A stretch of DNA of 64,000 nucleotides from Candidatus Baltobacteraceae bacterium. Its GTDB lineage: Bacteria > Vulcanimicrobiota > Vulcanimicrobiia > Vulcanimicrobiales > Vulcanimicrobiaceae. The position numbers and the translations under genes were made by a program. The stretch covers positions 124,001-188,000 of the forward strand of contig DASXGW010000003.1 of NCBI GenBank assembly GCA_036488875.1, given 5' to 3'. Shown piece by piece: positions 38,423 to 43,677 of the stretch (position 1 is the stretch's first letter; every line of letters begins with the position of its first letter). The notes under the pieces are model-generated. The model had not been told where the DNA came from. It saw nothing but the letters and a program-made list of their open reading frames with translations, and made no database searches.

Positions 38423-38845
38423 TTAGCAGAGTCCACCGCGAAGAGCTAAGACCGCTACTTGGGTGCGCGCCGTCAAGCCGAGTTTTCCGAGAATGTGTGA
38501 GATGTGGTTCTTGATCGTCTTGTCGCTGAGCTCGAGGTTCGCGCCGATCTGCTTGTTGGACAAGCCCTCGGCGATGAGCCGTACGACCTGAAGCTCGCGG
38601 GTCGAGAGCACCGCGCTCAAGTTCCACGCGCCGTCGCCGCCTGGAACGGGGCGAAGATGTCGCTTTGAGCTTTTCTTGGTCGACTTGCCGGCGTCAATGA
38701 GCGTTCCGACCGTAACCTCCCACAGATTGGGACGGTGGAGGATGACGGCCAGTTCGTTATCGTTACGAGCCAGGAGCGAGGCGGCGTAGCGTAAGATTTC
38801 GTCGCCTTGGTCGTCGGGGGTCCCGGGCATTGGTTGAGTATCCAT
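38423..38845 (-). CDS. LuxR/NarL-type HTH regulator without receiver domain
   Basis: A 140-residue protein. The C-terminal 65 residues are a clear GerE/LuxR helix-turn-helix: LSTRELQVVRLIAEGLSNKQIGANL then LSDKTIKNHISHILGKLG. The N-terminal 70 residues (ILRYAASLLARNDNELAVILHR) do not contain the Asp/Lys pattern of a receiver domain and are not a recognised sensor. A short Lys/Ser-rich linker (KSTKKSSKRH) separates them. It is divergent, by 96 bases, from the amidase/ABM/large-regulator operon, which is a natural candidate target. Confidence 0.88.
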   Translation of the reverse strand: MDTQPMPGTPDDQGDEILRYAASLLARNDNELAVILHRPNLWEVTVGTLIDAGKSTKKSSKRHLRPVPGGDGAWNLSAVLSTRELQVVRLIAEGLSNKQIGANLELSDKTIKNHISHILGKLGLTARTQVAVLALRGGLC

Positions 38846-38876
38846 AAAATAAGAGCGTCCTTTTGGAAGCCTTCGC

Positions 38877-38882
38877 TAGAAT
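38877..38882 (+). promoter_or_regulatory. -10 hexamer TAGAAT for the 38942 operon
   Basis: TAGAAT lies about 60 bases before the GTG at 38942. It predicts transcription from about 38889 and a short leader that is nearly filled by the hairpin at 38898-38940. No clear -35 is seen. Confidence 0.4.
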
Positions 38883-38897
38883 GGAAGGTACCAAAGG

Positions 38898-38940
38898 CCC
38901 AGGCGAGCGGCATCGGGGGAAACCCCTAGAAGAGCCTAGG
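38898..38940 (+). promoter_or_regulatory. Structured 5' leader with GNRA-capped stem
   Basis: An outer stem (CCCAGGC with GCCTAGG, one mismatch) encloses a 10/7-base internal loop and a GGGG-GAAA-CCCC hairpin. It ends one base before the GTG start and includes the only purine-rich segment (AGAAGAG) that could serve as Shine-Dalgarno. Translation could therefore be controlled by folding. Confidence 0.45.
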
Positions 38941-38941
38941 C

Positions 38942-39544
38942 GTGCACGTAGCGCTCTTGCTAGCCGCCCTCATGTTCGACGTCCTAATCTCCGCCGGCCA
39001 CGAAGGGCGGCCGGAAAGTTGCGTCAAGTTCCCTCACCATAAATGCAACCTCGGCGCGGCCGGCGAGCGCGATTGGACGCCAATCGTCGCCGATGCCGCG
39101 GCGCGCGTTCTGCGCGAGCACGGCCTGCGGGTTGCGCGCCTTCCCGCCGATTTCGACGGCGAATATCGCGTGAAAGCCGCCGCCTTCATTCACTTCGACG
39201 GATCGGCGCCGCCGTGTCGGAGCGGCGCGTCGATCGGGTACCATCGCGCGGAGGATACCGCGGCCGCCGACGCGTGGCGGCGTTTGTACTCGCGCTACTT
39301 CCCGTTTCGCTTTCAGCCGGATAACTTCACGACGAGCCTCCACGATTATTACGGCTTCCGGCAAGTCGACGCGAGCGAGGGGAGCCTCGTCCTCGAGCTC
39401 GGCGAAATCACGTGCCCCGATCAGCGCGCCTGGTTGGCGCCGCGGCTGCAATGGGAGGGCGAACTGCTGGCTTATTTCCTGAGCCGCCTAGCCGGGAAGG
39501 GGAACGTCCCCGACCCGGGTCCAAGTCCGGCCGTCGAGCCATGA
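38942..39544 (+). CDS. N-acetylmuramoyl-L-alanine-amidase-like (amidase_3-type) protein
   Basis: A 200-residue protein starting at GTG 38942. The spacing of motifs resembles zinc amidases of the amidase_3 fold: ISAGHEG (first His ligand), NLGAAGERDWT (Glu ligand), AAAFIHFDGS (second His) and, near the C-terminus, LVLELGEIT (catalytic Glu). A hydrophobic N-terminus (HVALLLAALMFDVL) may be a short signal or simply the first strand. It would cleave the amide between muramic acid and the stem peptide, though the divergence leaves another amide substrate possible. First gene of a tightly overlapping operon. Confidence 0.65.
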   Translation: MHVALLLAALMFDVLISAGHEGRPESCVKFPHHKCNLGAAGERDWTPIVADAAARVLREHGLRVARLPADFDGEYRVKAAAFIHFDGSAPPCRSGASIGYHRAEDTAAADAWRRLYSRYFPFRFQPDNFTTSLHDYYGFRQVDASEGSLVLELGEITCPDQRAWLAPRLQWEGELLAYFLSRLAGKGNVPDPGPSPAVEP

Positions 39545-39873
39545 TCGAGGTGTTCTTCCGGTACCGCGTGCATCCTCAACAAGTGCGCGCCTTCGAACAC
39601 GCCTACGGACCCAGCGGTCCGTGGGTCGAGATGTTTCGGCAGCACCCCGGTTTCCGGCGGACGCGCCTGTTCCGGCACAAGTCCGAGGCGCAGATCTACA
39701 TCACGGTCGACGTGTGGGATTCCAAGGAGTCCTACGATCAGTTTCGCGCCATGTACGCCGACGAATACAACCGGCTCGACGCCCAGCTTGCCATGCTCAA
39801 GCTGGAAGAACACTTACTAGGTTACTACGAAGGGCCCGAAGAGTATCGCGCGCCCCTCGACACAATGGCGTGA
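39541..39873 (+). CDS. ABM/NIPSNAP-like dimeric alpha-beta-barrel protein
   Basis: The ATG at 39541 overlaps the previous stop (ATGA). The 110-residue product looks like a ferredoxin-like dimeric alpha-beta barrel: MIEVFFRYRVHPQQVRAFEHAY, then HPGFRRTRLFRHKSEAQIYITVDVWDSKESYDQFR. Members include antibiotic-biosynthesis monooxygenases and NIPSNAP-type proteins; catalytic residues vary, so activity cannot be inferred. The stop overlaps the start of the large regulator (GTGA), placing it firmly in the same operon. Confidence 0.75.
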   Translation: MIEVFFRYRVHPQQVRAFEHAYGPSGPWVEMFRQHPGFRRTRLFRHKSEAQIYITVDVWDSKESYDQFRAMYADEYNRLDAQLAMLKLEEHLLGYYEGPEEYRAPLDTMA

Positions 39874-42206
39874 AACGTTCGCGCGTCGTCGCGCTGATCG
39901 CCGCGGCCGCTGCTTCCCCGCTGACGCTCATCGTTGCGCCGGCCGGCAGCGGTAAATCGCGCGCGATTAGCGAGTTTCTGGCCGAAGCAACCGGGAGCTT
40001 CGACGTCGTCGATGCCGTCGATCGGCTCGACGCCGTGGAACGGGCAGCCGCCGTCGCGGCGATCGACCGGGCCGATCCAACGCAGCGTTGGATTCTTGCG
40101 ACCCGCTCGAGCGAAGGACTGCCGATTGGTTCGTGGCTGGCCTACGGGCGTGCGCGTCGCGTGATCGGCGTTGCGGATCTGAGTTTCACCGCGTCGGAAA
40201 CGCGCGAGGAAGTCGTGGCGTTTACGGGTGGCTGGGCGGTCGCGGCATCGTTTGCGCACGCTCTGGCCGAAAGCGGCGTCGAGTTGCGCGCGGTACGCGA
40301 ACAAACGCGAGAGATGATGCGTTCGTTTCTGGACGAGCGCTTCTACGGCGAACTCAACGACGAGCAGCGCGAGCTGCTGGAAGCAGCGTCGGTGCTCCCC
40401 GCGATGGACGTTGCGCTGTTGGAGGGGGCGGGGTTTCCCGACGCATACGGCGCAATGCAGCGGATTGCCGCGCGAACCGCGATGGTGTGGGAAACGGGCG
40501 CCGCGCGTTTTGCCTGCAACGACATCACGGCCGACTACTTGCGACGCCGTATCGCGATGCGCGAGCGCGGGCAGCGTGCGCAGCTGTACGAACGCGCGGC
40601 GTCGGCGCTCGAGAGCAGCGGCGCCATCGGCGCGGCGCTCGACGCATACGTCGCCGCCGAACGGCGCGACGGCGTCGTTCGGCTGCTGCACGAGCGCGGC
40701 TTACAGCTCGTCGATCGCGCGCACGTGGATGTGGTGCACCGTGCTATCGATGCGCTCGACGACAAGATCAAGCGCGAAGACTCGGTTATCCTGACCTTAC
40801 GCGCCGTTGCTCACGCTGCCAAAGGCCGGCCGGTGCGCGCCGAAGGATTGCTCAAACGCGCCTTAACGCGAGCCGGCAACGATAAGGCTGCGCACGCCGC
40901 GGCTACGCTGCGCTTGTCGCTCCTGCTGGCCAACCGCGGCGAAGATGCCGGAAGTCATCTGGAATTGCTTGCGGCCGACGGCGATCAGGCGGCCGAAGCG
41001 CGCGCGGAAGCGTGGTCGATTCTCGCCGCGCATCGGGCTCTGTCGGGCGACACTCCTGCGGCAACGTCGGCGATCCAGCGCGCGAGCGAACTGCTGCCGT
41101 CGATCGAGCGTGATGACGTTCGCGCAAAAGTGCTGCAGCGAATCGGAGTTGCGGCGATCAATAGCGGTGACGTCGAGCTCGCCCGCAGCTCGCTAGAAGA
41201 AGCCGCCGAACTGGCGATGGAGTTGGAACTCTTCAGCCTCGCCAGCCGCGCGTATGTAAGTCTCTGTCGACTAGTCCTAGACAAGGACGATAACGTGGAG
41301 CAGCACCGTCTCTACTCCCAATCTGCGGTTGTCGCGGCTAAACGGGCGGACAATGCCTTCGACGTTCAAACTGCACTTATTGTTGGACTGCGTGCCGAGA
41401 TGCTTCGCGGGAATGAAGACGGAAGTTGCGCCTTTGAGGCTGAGTTGAAGGCGCTGCGCACTGCAGACGAGGCGCGCGTCCACGCTGTGAGTTCCTTAAA
41501 AGCCGTGCGAATGGCCTGGAACGGCAAGTTTTCTGAAGCGCACTATATCTTGGGACGAACCTGGGATCGGTTATATCTCGATTTCGATCGAGTGATGGCT
41601 GGCGCACTGTGCGGTTTATTCCTCGCTGTAGACGGACGTCGTACCGAATCTTCGCGTCTAATCACCGACGTTGTGCGCAAAGCAAATGGGGTGAGCGCTA
41701 ACGGACTGTTCGCAAAACGCCGCGTAGCGGTGGCGCGTCTCTACTGTGCAGTTGCCGAGAGCGTCAACGGGCGTTCGCTTCAGGCCGCAACGATCGTCCG
41801 ACAGATCGCCGTTTCTGATGACGATCCGATTATCGGGTTGGTGACAAATCTAGCCGCCAATATAACGACCTCCGTTCGCCAAGCGGCAACTGCCGACGCG
41901 GAACTGGAAAGGGTCGCACTCGCCAGACTAATGGCGCACGGATATGGCGATGCCGTACGTGTCCTTGAGGCGATTCGGGGCGCGCTCGAAGAACGGAAAT
42001 TCCTTAAGCGAATGAGCATAACGCCGGCCGAAGTCATAGTGCTGCGGCACCTCAACCACGGGCTGAGCCCGAAGGAGATCGCTGCTAGGACCGGCCGAAG
42101 CGTGTTTACCGTGCGAGCTCATATCGCAAATGCGATCGGGAAGCTCAGATGCAACGGTCGGGCCGAGGCCGTCGCTGTGGCGCGACGCCTAGGCCTTCTT
42201 GACTAA
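39870..42206 (+). CDS. Large STAND/LuxR (LAL, MalT-like) transcriptional regulator
   Basis: The GTG at 39870 overlaps the previous stop. The 778-residue protein has a P-loop near its N-terminus (LIVAPAGSGKSRAISEF), a reduced NTPase region (RWILATRSSEGLP), a long alpha-helical repeat region resembling TPR/MalT repeats (about 240-690) and a C-terminal LuxR HTH (MSITPAEVIVLRHLNHGLSPKEIAARTGRSVFTVRAHIANAIGKL, seen in pieces). LAL regulators use ATP and bind an inducer through the repeats. From about 41230 the codon usage becomes visibly less GC-biased (more ATA, CTA, TTA), unlike the first half. A tiny peptide gene follows. Confidence 0.88.
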   Translation: MKRSRVVALIAAAAASPLTLIVAPAGSGKSRAISEFLAEATGSFDVVDAVDRLDAVERAAAVAAIDRADPTQRWILATRSSEGLPIGSWLAYGRARRVIGVADLSFTASETREEVVAFTGGWAVAASFAHALAESGVELRAVREQTREMMRSFLDERFYGELNDEQRELLEAASVLPAMDVALLEGAGFPDAYGAMQRIAARTAMVWETGAARFACNDITADYLRRRIAMRERGQRAQLYERAASALESSGAIGAALDAYVAAERRDGVVRLLHERGLQLVDRAHVDVVHRAIDALDDKIKREDSVILTLRAVAHAAKGRPVRAEGLLKRALTRAGNDKAAHAAATLRLSLLLANRGEDAGSHLELLAADGDQAAEARAEAWSILAAHRALSGDTPAATSAIQRASELLPSIERDDVRAKVLQRIGVAAINSGDVELARSSLEEAAELAMELELFSLASRAYVSLCRLVLDKDDNVEQHRLYSQSAVVAAKRADNAFDVQTALIVGLRAEMLRGNEDGSCAFEAELKALRTADEARVHAVSSLKAVRMAWNGKFSEAHYILGRTWDRLYLDFDRVMAGALCGLFLAVDGRRTESSRLITDVVRKANGVSANGLFAKRRVAVARLYCAVAESVNGRSLQAATIVRQIAVSDDDPIIGLVTNLAANITTSVRQAATADAELERVALARLMAHGYGDAVRVLEAIRGALEERKFLKRMSITPAEVIVLRHLNHGLSPKEIAARTGRSVFTVRAHIANAIGKLRCNGRAEAVAVARRLGLLD

Positions 42207-42214
42207 TCAACTTT

Positions 42215-42247
42215 GACTAGAGACGACTTGGCCGTCTCCAGGTAGTC
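42215..42247 (+). promoter_or_regulatory. Hairpin between the regulator and the peptide ORF
   Basis: GACTA-GAGACG, a 7-base loop, CGTCTC, a CAGG bulge, then TAGTC: an 11-bp interrupted stem without a T-tract. The direct repeat TTGACTA occurs just upstream (42200 and 42213). It may be an mRNA-processing element or an operator. Confidence 0.4.
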
Positions 42248-42285
42248 TCGGGCTAGCTACTTCCGCTGTGCTTCTGGGAGGAACG

Positions 42286-42357
42286 ATGCACCATCTAGCG
42301 CTTCTGTTGAGTCTGTTGCTGCCGCTCGTCATATCGGCTCCAGATCCAATAGGGTAG
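42286..42357 (+). CDS. 23-residue hydrophobic peptide (MHHLALLL...APDPIG)
   Basis: The ORF starts at ATG 42286, with GGGAGGA ending three bases upstream, and stops at 42357 (TAG). The peptide has a His-His start, a Leu-rich hydrophobic core (residues 4-16) and a short polar tail APDPIG, like a miniature signal peptide or a membrane micro-protein. A strong terminator follows after 28 bases, so it is the last gene of the transcript containing the LAL regulator. Size, position and shape resemble pheromone precursors placed next to TPR-type receptors in other bacteria. That parallel is only an inference. Confidence 0.55.
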   Translation: MHHLALLLSLLLPLVISAPDPIG

Positions 42358-42385
42358 GGGTCCGGGGAACTGGGTGTGGGTTACG

Positions 42386-42415
42386 TGGAGGCGCGGGGCG
42401 CCTCCATTCTTTTTT
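42386..42415 (+). terminator. Strong Rho-independent terminator after the peptide ORF
   Basis: GGAGGCGC-GGG-GCGCCTCC, extended by a T/A pair, followed by TTCTTTTTT. It is one of the strongest terminators in the window and marks the end of the 38942 operon. Confidence 0.92.
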
Positions 42416-42432: not shown

Positions 42433-42460
42433 GGCCACCCAGTTGGCACTCTCGGGTGGC
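42433..42460. promoter_or_regulatory. Operator-like palindrome GGCCA-N6-TGGCACTC, copy 3, inside a second inverted repeat
   Basis: The same module as at 37813 and 37860, with one mismatch in the left arm. GCCACCC (42434-42440) also pairs with GGGTGGC (42454-42460). It abuts the -10-like CAGACT of the gene at 42472, and the whole 45-bp block closely resembles 37860-37900. Confidence 0.5.
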
Positions 42461-42465
42461 AGACT
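42460..42465 (+). promoter_or_regulatory. -10-like hexamer CAGACT, six bases before the start codon
   Basis: CAGACT-AGGCCC-ATG at 42472. It aligns base for base with the TAGACT-N6-ATG at 37888. Confidence 0.4.
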
Positions 42466-42471
42466 AGGCCC

Positions 42472-42927
42472 ATGAGCGAATATCTGATCGGAGCCGGGGC
42501 GGTCCTGACGGCGGGAGCGGCGGCCTCCATCACCGGCGCCACCCTGCACGCCCAGACCGACTCGCCGGCGGCCGGAGAGATTCGGGCGGCGGTCATCGAC
42601 TTCGAAGCCGGCTCGCCCCAAGAGCTCTCCCGCATCGTCCTCGTGGCCGCGGGTTGGTCGCCCAGCCGCTTCGAGTCCGGCGTGATCGAGCCGCTCCTCG
42701 CGCGCCGCGACTGTACCTTGGCCGACGTCATGGAGCGTCTCTCGGCGGCAACCGATGCCAGCGAGCTGCACCTGTTCGCGCGGTGGCTGCCCGACGTGAA
42801 CCTGGCCGCGGCGCTGCGGGAGAAGGGAGTTTCGCTGGTCGGTCATCCTATCGAGGCGATCGAGCAAGCGGCGCTGGTCTGCGGCCAGCGGCTCAACCGT
42901 TGGCGCGCGCCGTTTCGCGCGGCGTAG
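42472..42927 (+). CDS. Hypothetical protein (151 aa)
   Basis: The ATG at 42472 is preferred; an open frame to 42376 would read through the terminator hairpin. The N-terminus (YLIGAGAVLTAGAAASITGA) is a Gly/Ala-rich hydrophobic segment. The rest is a soluble helical domain (SPQELSRIVLVAAGW, TLADVMERLSAATDASELHLFARWLPDVNLAAALREKG). No family is recognised. It is monocistronic by its own operator/promoter block and sits just before a two-component system. Confidence 0.65.
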   Translation: MSEYLIGAGAVLTAGAAASITGATLHAQTDSPAAGEIRAAVIDFEAGSPQELSRIVLVAAGWSPSRFESGVIEPLLARRDCTLADVMERLSAATDASELHLFARWLPDVNLAAALREKGVSLVGHPIEAIEQAALVCGQRLNRWRAPFRAA

Positions 42928-42990: not shown

Positions 42991-43677
42991 ATGATGATCA
43001 TGCCCAACGCCCGCGTCGCGGTGATCGACGACGACCGTCTGGTCCGCGAGATGCTCGAACTCGGCCTTTCACGGGAAGGCTACGAGGTTCGTACCGCTAC
43101 TGACGGTCAAGGCGCCCTCGCACTCGTGAAAACCTTCGACCCTGAAGTCATCGTGCTCGATATCATGATGCCGAAGATCGACGGACTCACGCTATTGCCA
43201 ATGCTGCGCGAAATCACTCAGGCGCCGATCCTAATGCTCACGGCGAAAGGCGGCACCGAAGACAAGGTTCGTTCCTTGAGTACCGGTGCCGACGACTATC
43301 TCGTCAAGCCGTTCGTCTTCGAAGAGCTCATCGCTCGGTTGCAAGCCAAGCTGCGCCGGCCGCAGCTCATCGAGGAACACGTGCTGCGCTGGCGCGATGT
43401 CTCGATCAATCCTGAGACTCGCGAAGCGTGGCGAGGCAAGGATCCGCTGGAGTTCACGCAACGCGAGTTCGATCTGCTCGAGGTCTTCATGCGCGAGCCG
43501 CGCCGCGTTTTCAGCAAAGACCATTTGCTTGAGATCGTCTGGGGACACGACTTCGAGGGCGGTCCGAACATCGTCGAGACCTACATTTCCTATCTGCGCG
43601 CGAAGATCGATCGTCCGGGCGAACCCGGTTCGTTTATCCGCACCGTTCGCGGTGTGGGTTACGGCCTCTCCCAGTAG
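42991..43677 (+). CDS. OmpR/PhoB-family response regulator
   Basis: A 228-residue protein. The receiver domain has VAVIDDDRLVREML (acidic pair), VIVLDIMMPKIDG (phospho-acceptor Asp), ILMLTAKGG and DDYLVKPFVFEEL (conserved Lys). The winged-helix output domain has EFTQREFDLLEVFMREPRRVFSKDHLLEIVWG and TYISYLRAKI.RPGEP, ending RTVRGVGYGL. Alternative starts at 42994 or 43000 exist, downstream of TAGACA. It is followed after six bases by its sensor kinase. A 10-bp tandem repeat upstream of the TonB receptor at 45187 is a likely binding site. Confidence 0.95.
   Translation: MMIMPNARVAVIDDDRLVREMLELGLSREGYEVRTATDGQGALALVKTFDPEVIVLDIMMPKIDGLTLLPMLREITQAPILMLTAKGGTEDKVRSLSTGADDYLVKPFVFEELIARLQAKLRRPQLIEEHVLRWRDVSINPETREAWRGKDPLEFTQREFDLLEVFMREPRRVFSKDHLLEIVWGHDFEGGPNIVETYISYLRAKIDRPGEPGSFIRTVRGVGYGLSQ

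Follow-up and report, generated by a model that had tools for sequence, protein, structure and literature searches.

Does the short open reading frame (ORF) that follows a MalT-like (LAL) regulator gene in the 64,000-nucleotide stretch of DNA analyzed here (the window) encode a peptide, and could that peptide be the signal that the regulator reads? The window is part of a 3.7-Mb genome (G000), and its sequence bore out the genes and coordinates listed in the original prediction, namely an amidase-like protein, an ABM protein, a 778-residue regulator, a micro-ORF with its Shine-Dalgarno sequence, and a terminator (Table 1). The first three of these genes overlap one another and are followed by a separate small transcription unit that contains the micro-ORF. 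Our preference leans towards the peptide being the regulator's own exported ligand, the two constituting a receptor-pheromone pair built on a MalT-like chassis.

Table 1. Features of the regulator-peptide locus in the window
Feature	Position	Strand	Remarks
Amidase-fold ORF	38942..39544	+	First gene of upstream operon; translation may actually start at ATG 38972
ABM-domain protein	39541..39873	+	PF03992, E 3.9e-8; translational overlap with neighbors
LAL/MalT-like regulator, 778 aa	39870..42206	+	GerE HTH above cutoff; putative receptor
Palindrome CTAATCAA-CT-TTGACTAG, 18 bp	42203..42220	.	Putative operator; overlaps regulator stop codon
-10-like hexamer TAGTCT	42243..42248	+	Peptide promoter; 22 nt past palindrome
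Shine-Dalgarno sequence GGGAGGA of micro-ORF	42276..42282	+	Identified from sequence; good Shine-Dalgarno sequence also before most relatives' micro-ORFs
Micropeptide gene, MHHLALLLSLLLPLVISAPDPIG	42286..42357	+	23 aa plus stop; candidate autoinducing-peptide precursor
Intrinsic terminator after micro-ORF	42385..42415	+	10-bp stem and T-run
orf42472 (MSEYLIGAG...)	42472..42927	+	Downstream gene conserved in synteny; no Pfam hit
Divergent LuxR protein	38423-38845	divergent	Opposite to amidase, ABM, and regulator genes

The micro-ORF and its conservation

An alternative start codon, GTG at 42268, would give a 29-amino-acid (aa) peptide; the ATG at 42286 is favored because of its better Shine-Dalgarno sequence and its agreement with relatives. 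In G001, which belongs to the same genus, a micro-ORF encoding MTLLALALGVIVALFTAPGPIG and ending in a stop codon was found in the identical position behind a GGAGG site, with a hairpin-T terminator also seen at the corresponding place. A DNA search of the window's own genome found the 231-nt block of the locus to be single copy, and it is therefore not a repeat family. Searching the block against Rfam yielded nothing but subthreshold chance matches; thus, no known RNA element accounts for it.

Beyond G000 and G001, a phylum-wide search for micro-ORFs with the exact APxPIG motif returned a single site, in G030, that looks unrelated. As this motif was too narrow, the search was widened by anchoring it on the regulator. 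A total of 98 regulator homologues were collected in the family, 48 of them with a micro-ORF, while a 49th (G096), which comes with a perfect palindrome, was missed by the ribosome-site filter. Of the family's 99 genomes, 49, from 19 genera, have an ORF of 20 to 45 codons behind a relative of the regulator, usually about 65 to 130 nt downstream of it. A further micro-ORF, MITVAVIAALEAIAFTVIPPIG, is carried by locus L158 of the named collection. Named relatives (n = 45) were Candidatus Eremiobacterota, Eremiobacteria, or WPS-2 MAGs, with a few titled "bacterium" and one labeled Rhodospirillales, which is probably misnamed.

Using a scan with fixed criteria (ribosome site, length, hydrophobic stretch, and a Pro near the end), a micro-ORF was detected behind 43 of 93 regulators, compared with 9 of 3720 dinucleotide shuffles (0.24%), 1 of 93 reverse complements, and 0 of 305 upstream stretches; the Pro criterion was picked after the peptides were known, yet it was applied equally to the controls. 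Seven nonoverlapping close pairs showed 59.7 synonymous differences over 138 sites and 48.3 nonsynonymous differences over 357 sites (pS 0.43 versus pN 0.135; Fisher p = 4e-12), a synonymous excess pointing to purifying selection; such conservation with synonymous substitutions was the check suggested in the original prediction. The G028 peptide, MYASRISSISVVPVGGAVSVVPVGGAMSVVPVGGA, contains SVVPVGGA three times with every codon differing synonymously, as all eight variable nucleotides of the repeats lie at third positions (P = 1.4e-6). Judged by these comparisons of sequence, the micro-ORF is a real gene.

A real ORF in this position could also act through its translation. Pro-Pro motifs able to stall ribosomes are described in PMC8129111, and PP was identified within the last eight residues of 38 of the 49 peptides, with a terminator located downstream in the window. 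A leader peptide, in which arrest at such a motif near the stop codon would stall the ribosome and control the next gene or the terminator, is nevertheless highly improbable. PP is absent from several peptides (PITPVG and VPVGGA), folding of the leader RNA is less stable than that of shuffles (z, +1.8), and the following gene differs by clade (HD-GYP or orf42472) whereas the peptide stays. Moreover, arrest needs neither third-position-only changes over three internal repeats nor C-terminal linkers.

Palindrome, promoter, and neighboring genes

An 8-2-8 palindrome with at least six of its eight positions paired lies 59 to 75 nt upstream of the start codon in 36 loci and is followed by TANNNT in all 36 scored, at a distance of exactly 22 nt in 23 of them and of exactly 23 nt in the other 13. 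Several other loci have a half-degenerate site, and a recognizable palindrome was not found in a few micro-ORF loci (G067, G064, and G072). A sigma-70 scan of the window block identified no promoter; the peptide promoter is without a -35 element, as is expected if an activator replaces it. With its center at about -43, the palindrome would occupy the position of such an activator, and from this placement, where a protein contacting RNA polymerase would bind, it is proposed that the peptide gene is autoinduced.

Half-sites were of the types CTAGT/CTAAT, CTACTTAA, xTACCCAA, and CTCGTCCT. Recognition helices with A or V before His were found with a purine at half-site position 4 in 14 of 16 cases, and those with T were found with a C at this position in 16 of 16 (purine, 0 of 16). 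This association between HTH and operator gave a Fisher p of 5e-7, with lineages that are not independent and shared ancestry uncorrected. In G020, helix and half-site are both switched relative to the nearest relative clades.

Within the window's genome, the palindrome at 42203-42220 is the sole match at three or fewer mismatches. A single credible operator copy, located before the peptide gene, was present in all 11 genomes in which the site was found (G000, G001, G025, G099, G100, G028, G117, G114, G004, G111, and G120). G099 and G117 have one further match each, with three mismatches, and in G001 the second match is merely the first one again, on the opposite strand; the search was empty in G098, where the site is degenerate. 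As the single credible operator lies before the peptide gene, it is most likely this gene that the regulator controls. The regulator is predicted to bind the palindrome, with the peptide unit most likely its dedicated target. The original prediction had cast regulator and peptide as functional partners, and linkage, purifying selection, a palindromic promoter that covaries with the HTH, and the repeats in relatives all lend it strong comparative support; on sequence comparison, the two genes appear to form one conserved regulatory unit.

The wall amidase had been put forward as a plausible output of the system. This proposal was not supported, as the genome's one credible operator precedes the peptide gene, with none before the amidase gene, and many clades carry an HD-GYP protein after the peptide instead. 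The 38942 product had no match in Pfam or NCBIfam; its AF2 model (pLDDT 86) was matched by Foldseek to CwlV, AmiC2, Ami1, and other amidases (E, 1e-6 to 1e-7), and GHE, H20, E42, H84, and E152/E155 are invariant in 16 relatives. From the fold and these invariant residues, it is a protein of N-acetylmuramoyl-L-alanine amidase (Amidase_3-like) fold that has the H, E, and H residues of the Amidase_3 Zn site as well as the catalytic Glu. The start of its gene is uncertain, since conservation sets in near the ATG at 38972. The amidase gene is apparently cotranscribed with that of the regulator; it and the ABM gene are conserved upstream neighbors, with the ABM gene adjoining the regulator in many relatives. 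The micropeptide resembles the amidase N terminus (MHVALLLAALMFDVLISAGHEG), but an origin as a fragment of the amidase gene was rejected, as the relatives have their own divergent peptides without an amidase-like continuation.

The divergent LuxR gene is present as described earlier, but it fits poorly as a part of the system. The G001 locus leaves no room for such a gene, and it is therefore probably incidental. On the downstream side, orthologs of orf42472, 52 to 72% identical, adjoin the regulator in the window's genus, g12, and g36; orf42472 appears to be a syntenic neighbor rather than a demonstrated member of the unit. The downstream response regulator is, with orf42472, also a conserved neighbor. 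Encoded at 42991-43677, it lies in a fixed neighborhood and is 95% identical to its G001 ortholog, making it far better conserved than the LAL regulator (43%). Just before orf42472, an element beginning CAGTTGGCACTC (42433-42471) shares 91% identity over 47 nt with G001 and was also seen in several other genomes; it is partly palindromic and does not match sigma-54 spacing.

In most clades outside that of the window (g1, g12, and g36), the peptide gene is followed by an HD-GYP gene (PF13487; E, 1e-30 to 1e-40). This gene is absent from the place in the window's clade, and in g1 the peptide stands alone, followed by a terminator.

One point against a role as pheromone is that certain close relatives have the regulator but no peptide gene. 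Such relatives, regarded beforehand as potential evidence against the pairing, were indeed seen, in a minority (G061, G062, G075-G077, G012, and G119), and they resemble losses, as most of the relatives without a micro-ORF, with the exception of G119, are also without a recognizable operator. Mapped onto the tree of regulators, presence of the peptide requires 7 changes, compared with 31.5 in shuffles; the orthologous clade probably had the peptide from early on, with later loss in these relatives. In G119 (C265:11955 onward; locus L100), a diverged palindrome, CTCATCCTTTTGGACGAG, was identified along with a terminator-like hairpin but no recognizable micro-ORF, which also counts against a pheromone; the micro-ORF may have been lost naturally here, or this may be a version of the locus that yields only a small RNA.

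Regulator fold and peptide features

The C terminus of the regulator matched PF00196 (GerE) at 34.0 bits (cutoff, 23.5), and a Walker A motif, APAGSGKS, was recognized by eye in its N-terminal STAND/P-loop NTPase part, for which there was no Pfam NTPase match; TPR hits were weak in the profile search. Its NCBIfam MalT score was 63.6 bits against a cutoff of 537. The regulator is thus a LAL protein by architecture, yet it is not MalT. In the AF2 model (pLDDT 89; 41 sequences), the STAND NTPase is reduced and is accompanied by a long TPR superhelix and a LuxR HTH. The STAND-TPR protein 6mfv was the best fold match, and further matches were obtained to MalT (8bob, and for the TPR part domain III, 1hz4, Z 19.4), Rap (8rte, Z 19.9), NprR (4gpk, Z 18.1), and AimR (9f36). 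However, the TPR fold is equally close to APC/C subunits, LGN, and others, making the likeness of the superhelix generic, and fold searches of the PDB failed to separate peptide-binding TPRs from other TPRs. The modeled fold is compatible with peptide binding without proving it. The NTPase part (39870-40200) is shorter in the window's genus, where the protein has 778 aa compared with about 870 in most relatives, and from this shortening the STAND switch may be degenerate there.

The peptides consist of a hydrophobic segment and a Pro-rich C terminus, ending in APDPIG in the window and in PPGPVG, PPDPL, PPSIG, PPMGG, or PPAGVG in others. Among the 49 peptides, Pro occupies position -5 in 39 and Gly position -1 in 32, with conservation concentrated in the Pro/Gly C terminus while the hydrophobic part drifts. 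The linker between the hydrophobic part and the C-terminal motif varies in length (the peptides range from 20 to 45 aa overall), extending in genus g18 to about 25 residues before SPPAGVG or PPGSVG. This pattern fits a precursor with an important C terminus more than it fits a transmembrane microprotein.

Several features nonetheless count against a pheromone. A normal signal-peptide N-region is absent, there being one Lys or Arg in all 49 peptides, and Pro directly follows the most signal-peptidase-like site; export and cleavage are therefore left without explanation. Furthermore, the one credible operator of the window's species serves only the peptide gene, and an output gene was therefore not found. 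The missing N-region and the restriction of the operator to the peptide gene, together with the purely hydrophobic stretch of 12 to 14 residues in most of the peptides, favor the main rival, a membrane microprotein, which we regard as unlikely. Here, the LAL protein would sense something else, a metabolite or a partner protein, in the manner of MalT, and switch on a small membrane peptide as its output, which would act on a membrane protein or on the envelope. Conservation in the C terminus rather than in the drifting hydrophobic part speaks against it, as do the three copies of SVVPVGGA in G028, the lipoprotein-like ORF with a similar ending at the corresponding place in a sister family, and the repeat-bearing lipoproteins of neighboring LAL clades.

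Alternatively, the peptide could act as a corepressor or coactivator of the LAL protein inside the producing cell, giving feedback without cell-cell signaling. The autoregulatory layout and the lack of a recognized signal peptide would suit such a partner, but the hydrophobic N-terminal segment and the lipobox, present at the homologous position in G037 and in sister precursors, make it distinctly improbable.

As an exported ligand, the micropeptide would be a propeptide whose hydrophobic N terminus targets it to or across the membrane. Its Pro-rich C-terminal piece would be trimmed off and would reenter the cell via Opp-type importers; with 19 Opp-type binding proteins in the genome, peptide import is possible. 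The LAL protein would then serve as a cytoplasmic receptor, its TPR superhelix reading the C-terminal piece (in the window, the region near APDPIG), and binding of its LuxR-type HTH to the palindrome would boost the peptide promoter, resulting in autoinduction. In most clades the HD-GYP gene would be expressed from the shared promoter as well, which would link the signal to the turnover of cyclic dinucleotides; in the window's clade, that gene has disappeared from the locus. The presence of the product in the cell, its export, processing, import, and binding, and the sign of the regulation are points that we infer.

Relation to known systems and to sister LAL regulators

MalT responds to maltotriose. 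The window regulator shares with MalT and other LAL proteins the order of P-loop NTPase, helical repeats, and C-terminal LuxR HTH, and it differs in being accompanied by a peptide gene and in its NTPase part, which is shorter than in most relatives. To our knowledge, no LAL regulator paired with a peptide gene is known, and no description of such a pair was found in the literature searched, which comprised open-licence papers.

In the papers found, it is for Bacillota that cytoplasmic TPR receptors of peptide pheromones are described. In the SHP-Rgg and ComS-ComR systems of streptococci, as at the window locus, a cytoplasmic helical-repeat regulator lies beside a very small gene whose product is a hydrophobic peptide about 20 residues long, the signal is expected at the C terminus of the peptide, and the proposed regulator site is at the peptide promoter. 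NprR-NprX and Rap-Phr have TPR receptors for short linear peptides and, in some precursors, tandem repeats of the signal; the TPR region of the window regulator superposes on Rap and NprR, with no sequence relationship established. Repeated signal copies, as seen in relatives of the window peptide, are reported for Rap, NprR, AimR, and PlcR propeptides (PMC9765709 and PMC11343458), and a candidate propeptide gene adjacent to the receptor gene, a feature of RRNPP(A) systems, was found in 49 genomes. The receptors differ, however. Those of RRNPP(A) systems belong to Bacillota, fall within the 250- to 500-aa range used by RRNPP_detector (PMC10075063), and have an N-terminal XRE HTH or Rap-type three-helix bundle, whereas those of the window's family are STAND NTPase-TPR-LuxR proteins of 780 to 870 aa (778 in the window) with a C-terminal GerE HTH. 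The peptides here are nearly without Lys or Arg and unrelated in sequence, and the named relatives are Eremiobacterota-type MAGs, from a phylum whose cultured member stains Gram-negative (PMC9758169). As proposed, the window pair works like SHP-Rgg or NprR-NprX but falls outside the RRNPP definition in size, HTH type, and phylum.

Where a LAL paralogue lacks the micropeptide, the gene immediately behind it in many cases encodes a lipobox protein in which a short peptide is repeated in tandem. One such case is in G000 itself (C7, locus L008:3756-4940), and others are at loci L009, L110, L086, L095, L099, L104, L111, and L108. The repeats include EGANALPG (two copies), DSLSAMPG (three), and DAPATLPG, DGAAALPG, ESATGLPG, and GAGATGLPG (four each), and a small lipoprotein behind a sister LAL gene contains four copies of PFPVSI. 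Repeat copies vary at many synonymous sites; as exact copies were searched for, the missing amino acid change is partly by construction, and imperfect copies exist. The lipobox repeat proteins look like multicopy precursors of candidate pheromones, and they lend support to LAL proteins of this group pairing with exported peptides. In G037, from family f2, the palindrome CTACCTAA-TT-TTCGGTAG is followed by a 50-aa lipobox ORF, MTRVLAALALGASILGLAACSGGASSITPPTQSVTQQGQHPDSGGLPPNL, which ends in PPNL; both this ORF and the sister repeat lipoproteins appear as would be expected of exported precursors. A close relative of the regulator was not found in the sampled genomes of family f3, nor was any relative identified with three queries in G009, a single 3.5-Mb contig. 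The larger repeat lipoproteins appear sedolisin-like by eye, with a Pfam match in 0 of 3 tested.

A wider reading, to which we give an even chance, would make LAL (STAND-TPR-LuxR) proteins a second major class of pheromone receptors in the cytoplasm, each with an exported peptide precursor of its own. Linear-peptide quorum sensing would then have arisen separately in a diderm phylum and, in many lineages, would be wired to HD-GYP cyclic-dinucleotide enzymes. The precursors would be of three types, namely SHP-like micropeptides, small lipoproteins, and lipoproteins with repeated xxxxLPG octapeptides. For the poorly cultured phylum Eremiobacterota, little-studied soil bacteria, a conserved LAL-peptide pair would be the first cell-cell signal known, and it would hint at the kind of ligand that some of the numerous orphan LAL regulators respond to. 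The idea is testable at once, because the sequence itself gives the operator and promoter along with short peptides as candidates.

Two other arrangements of LAL genes were observed. In genus g25 (loci L085, L082, L070, L081, and L136), two tandem LAL genes precede one peptide gene; the upstream LAL protein falls in its own peptide-less clade and could be an eavesdropping receptor. In the window's genome, at C13:264588-267568 (L011 and L183), an HD-GYP gene comes after a LAL paralogue whose match does not include the HTH, as though a sensor were linked directly to a cyclic-dinucleotide enzyme.
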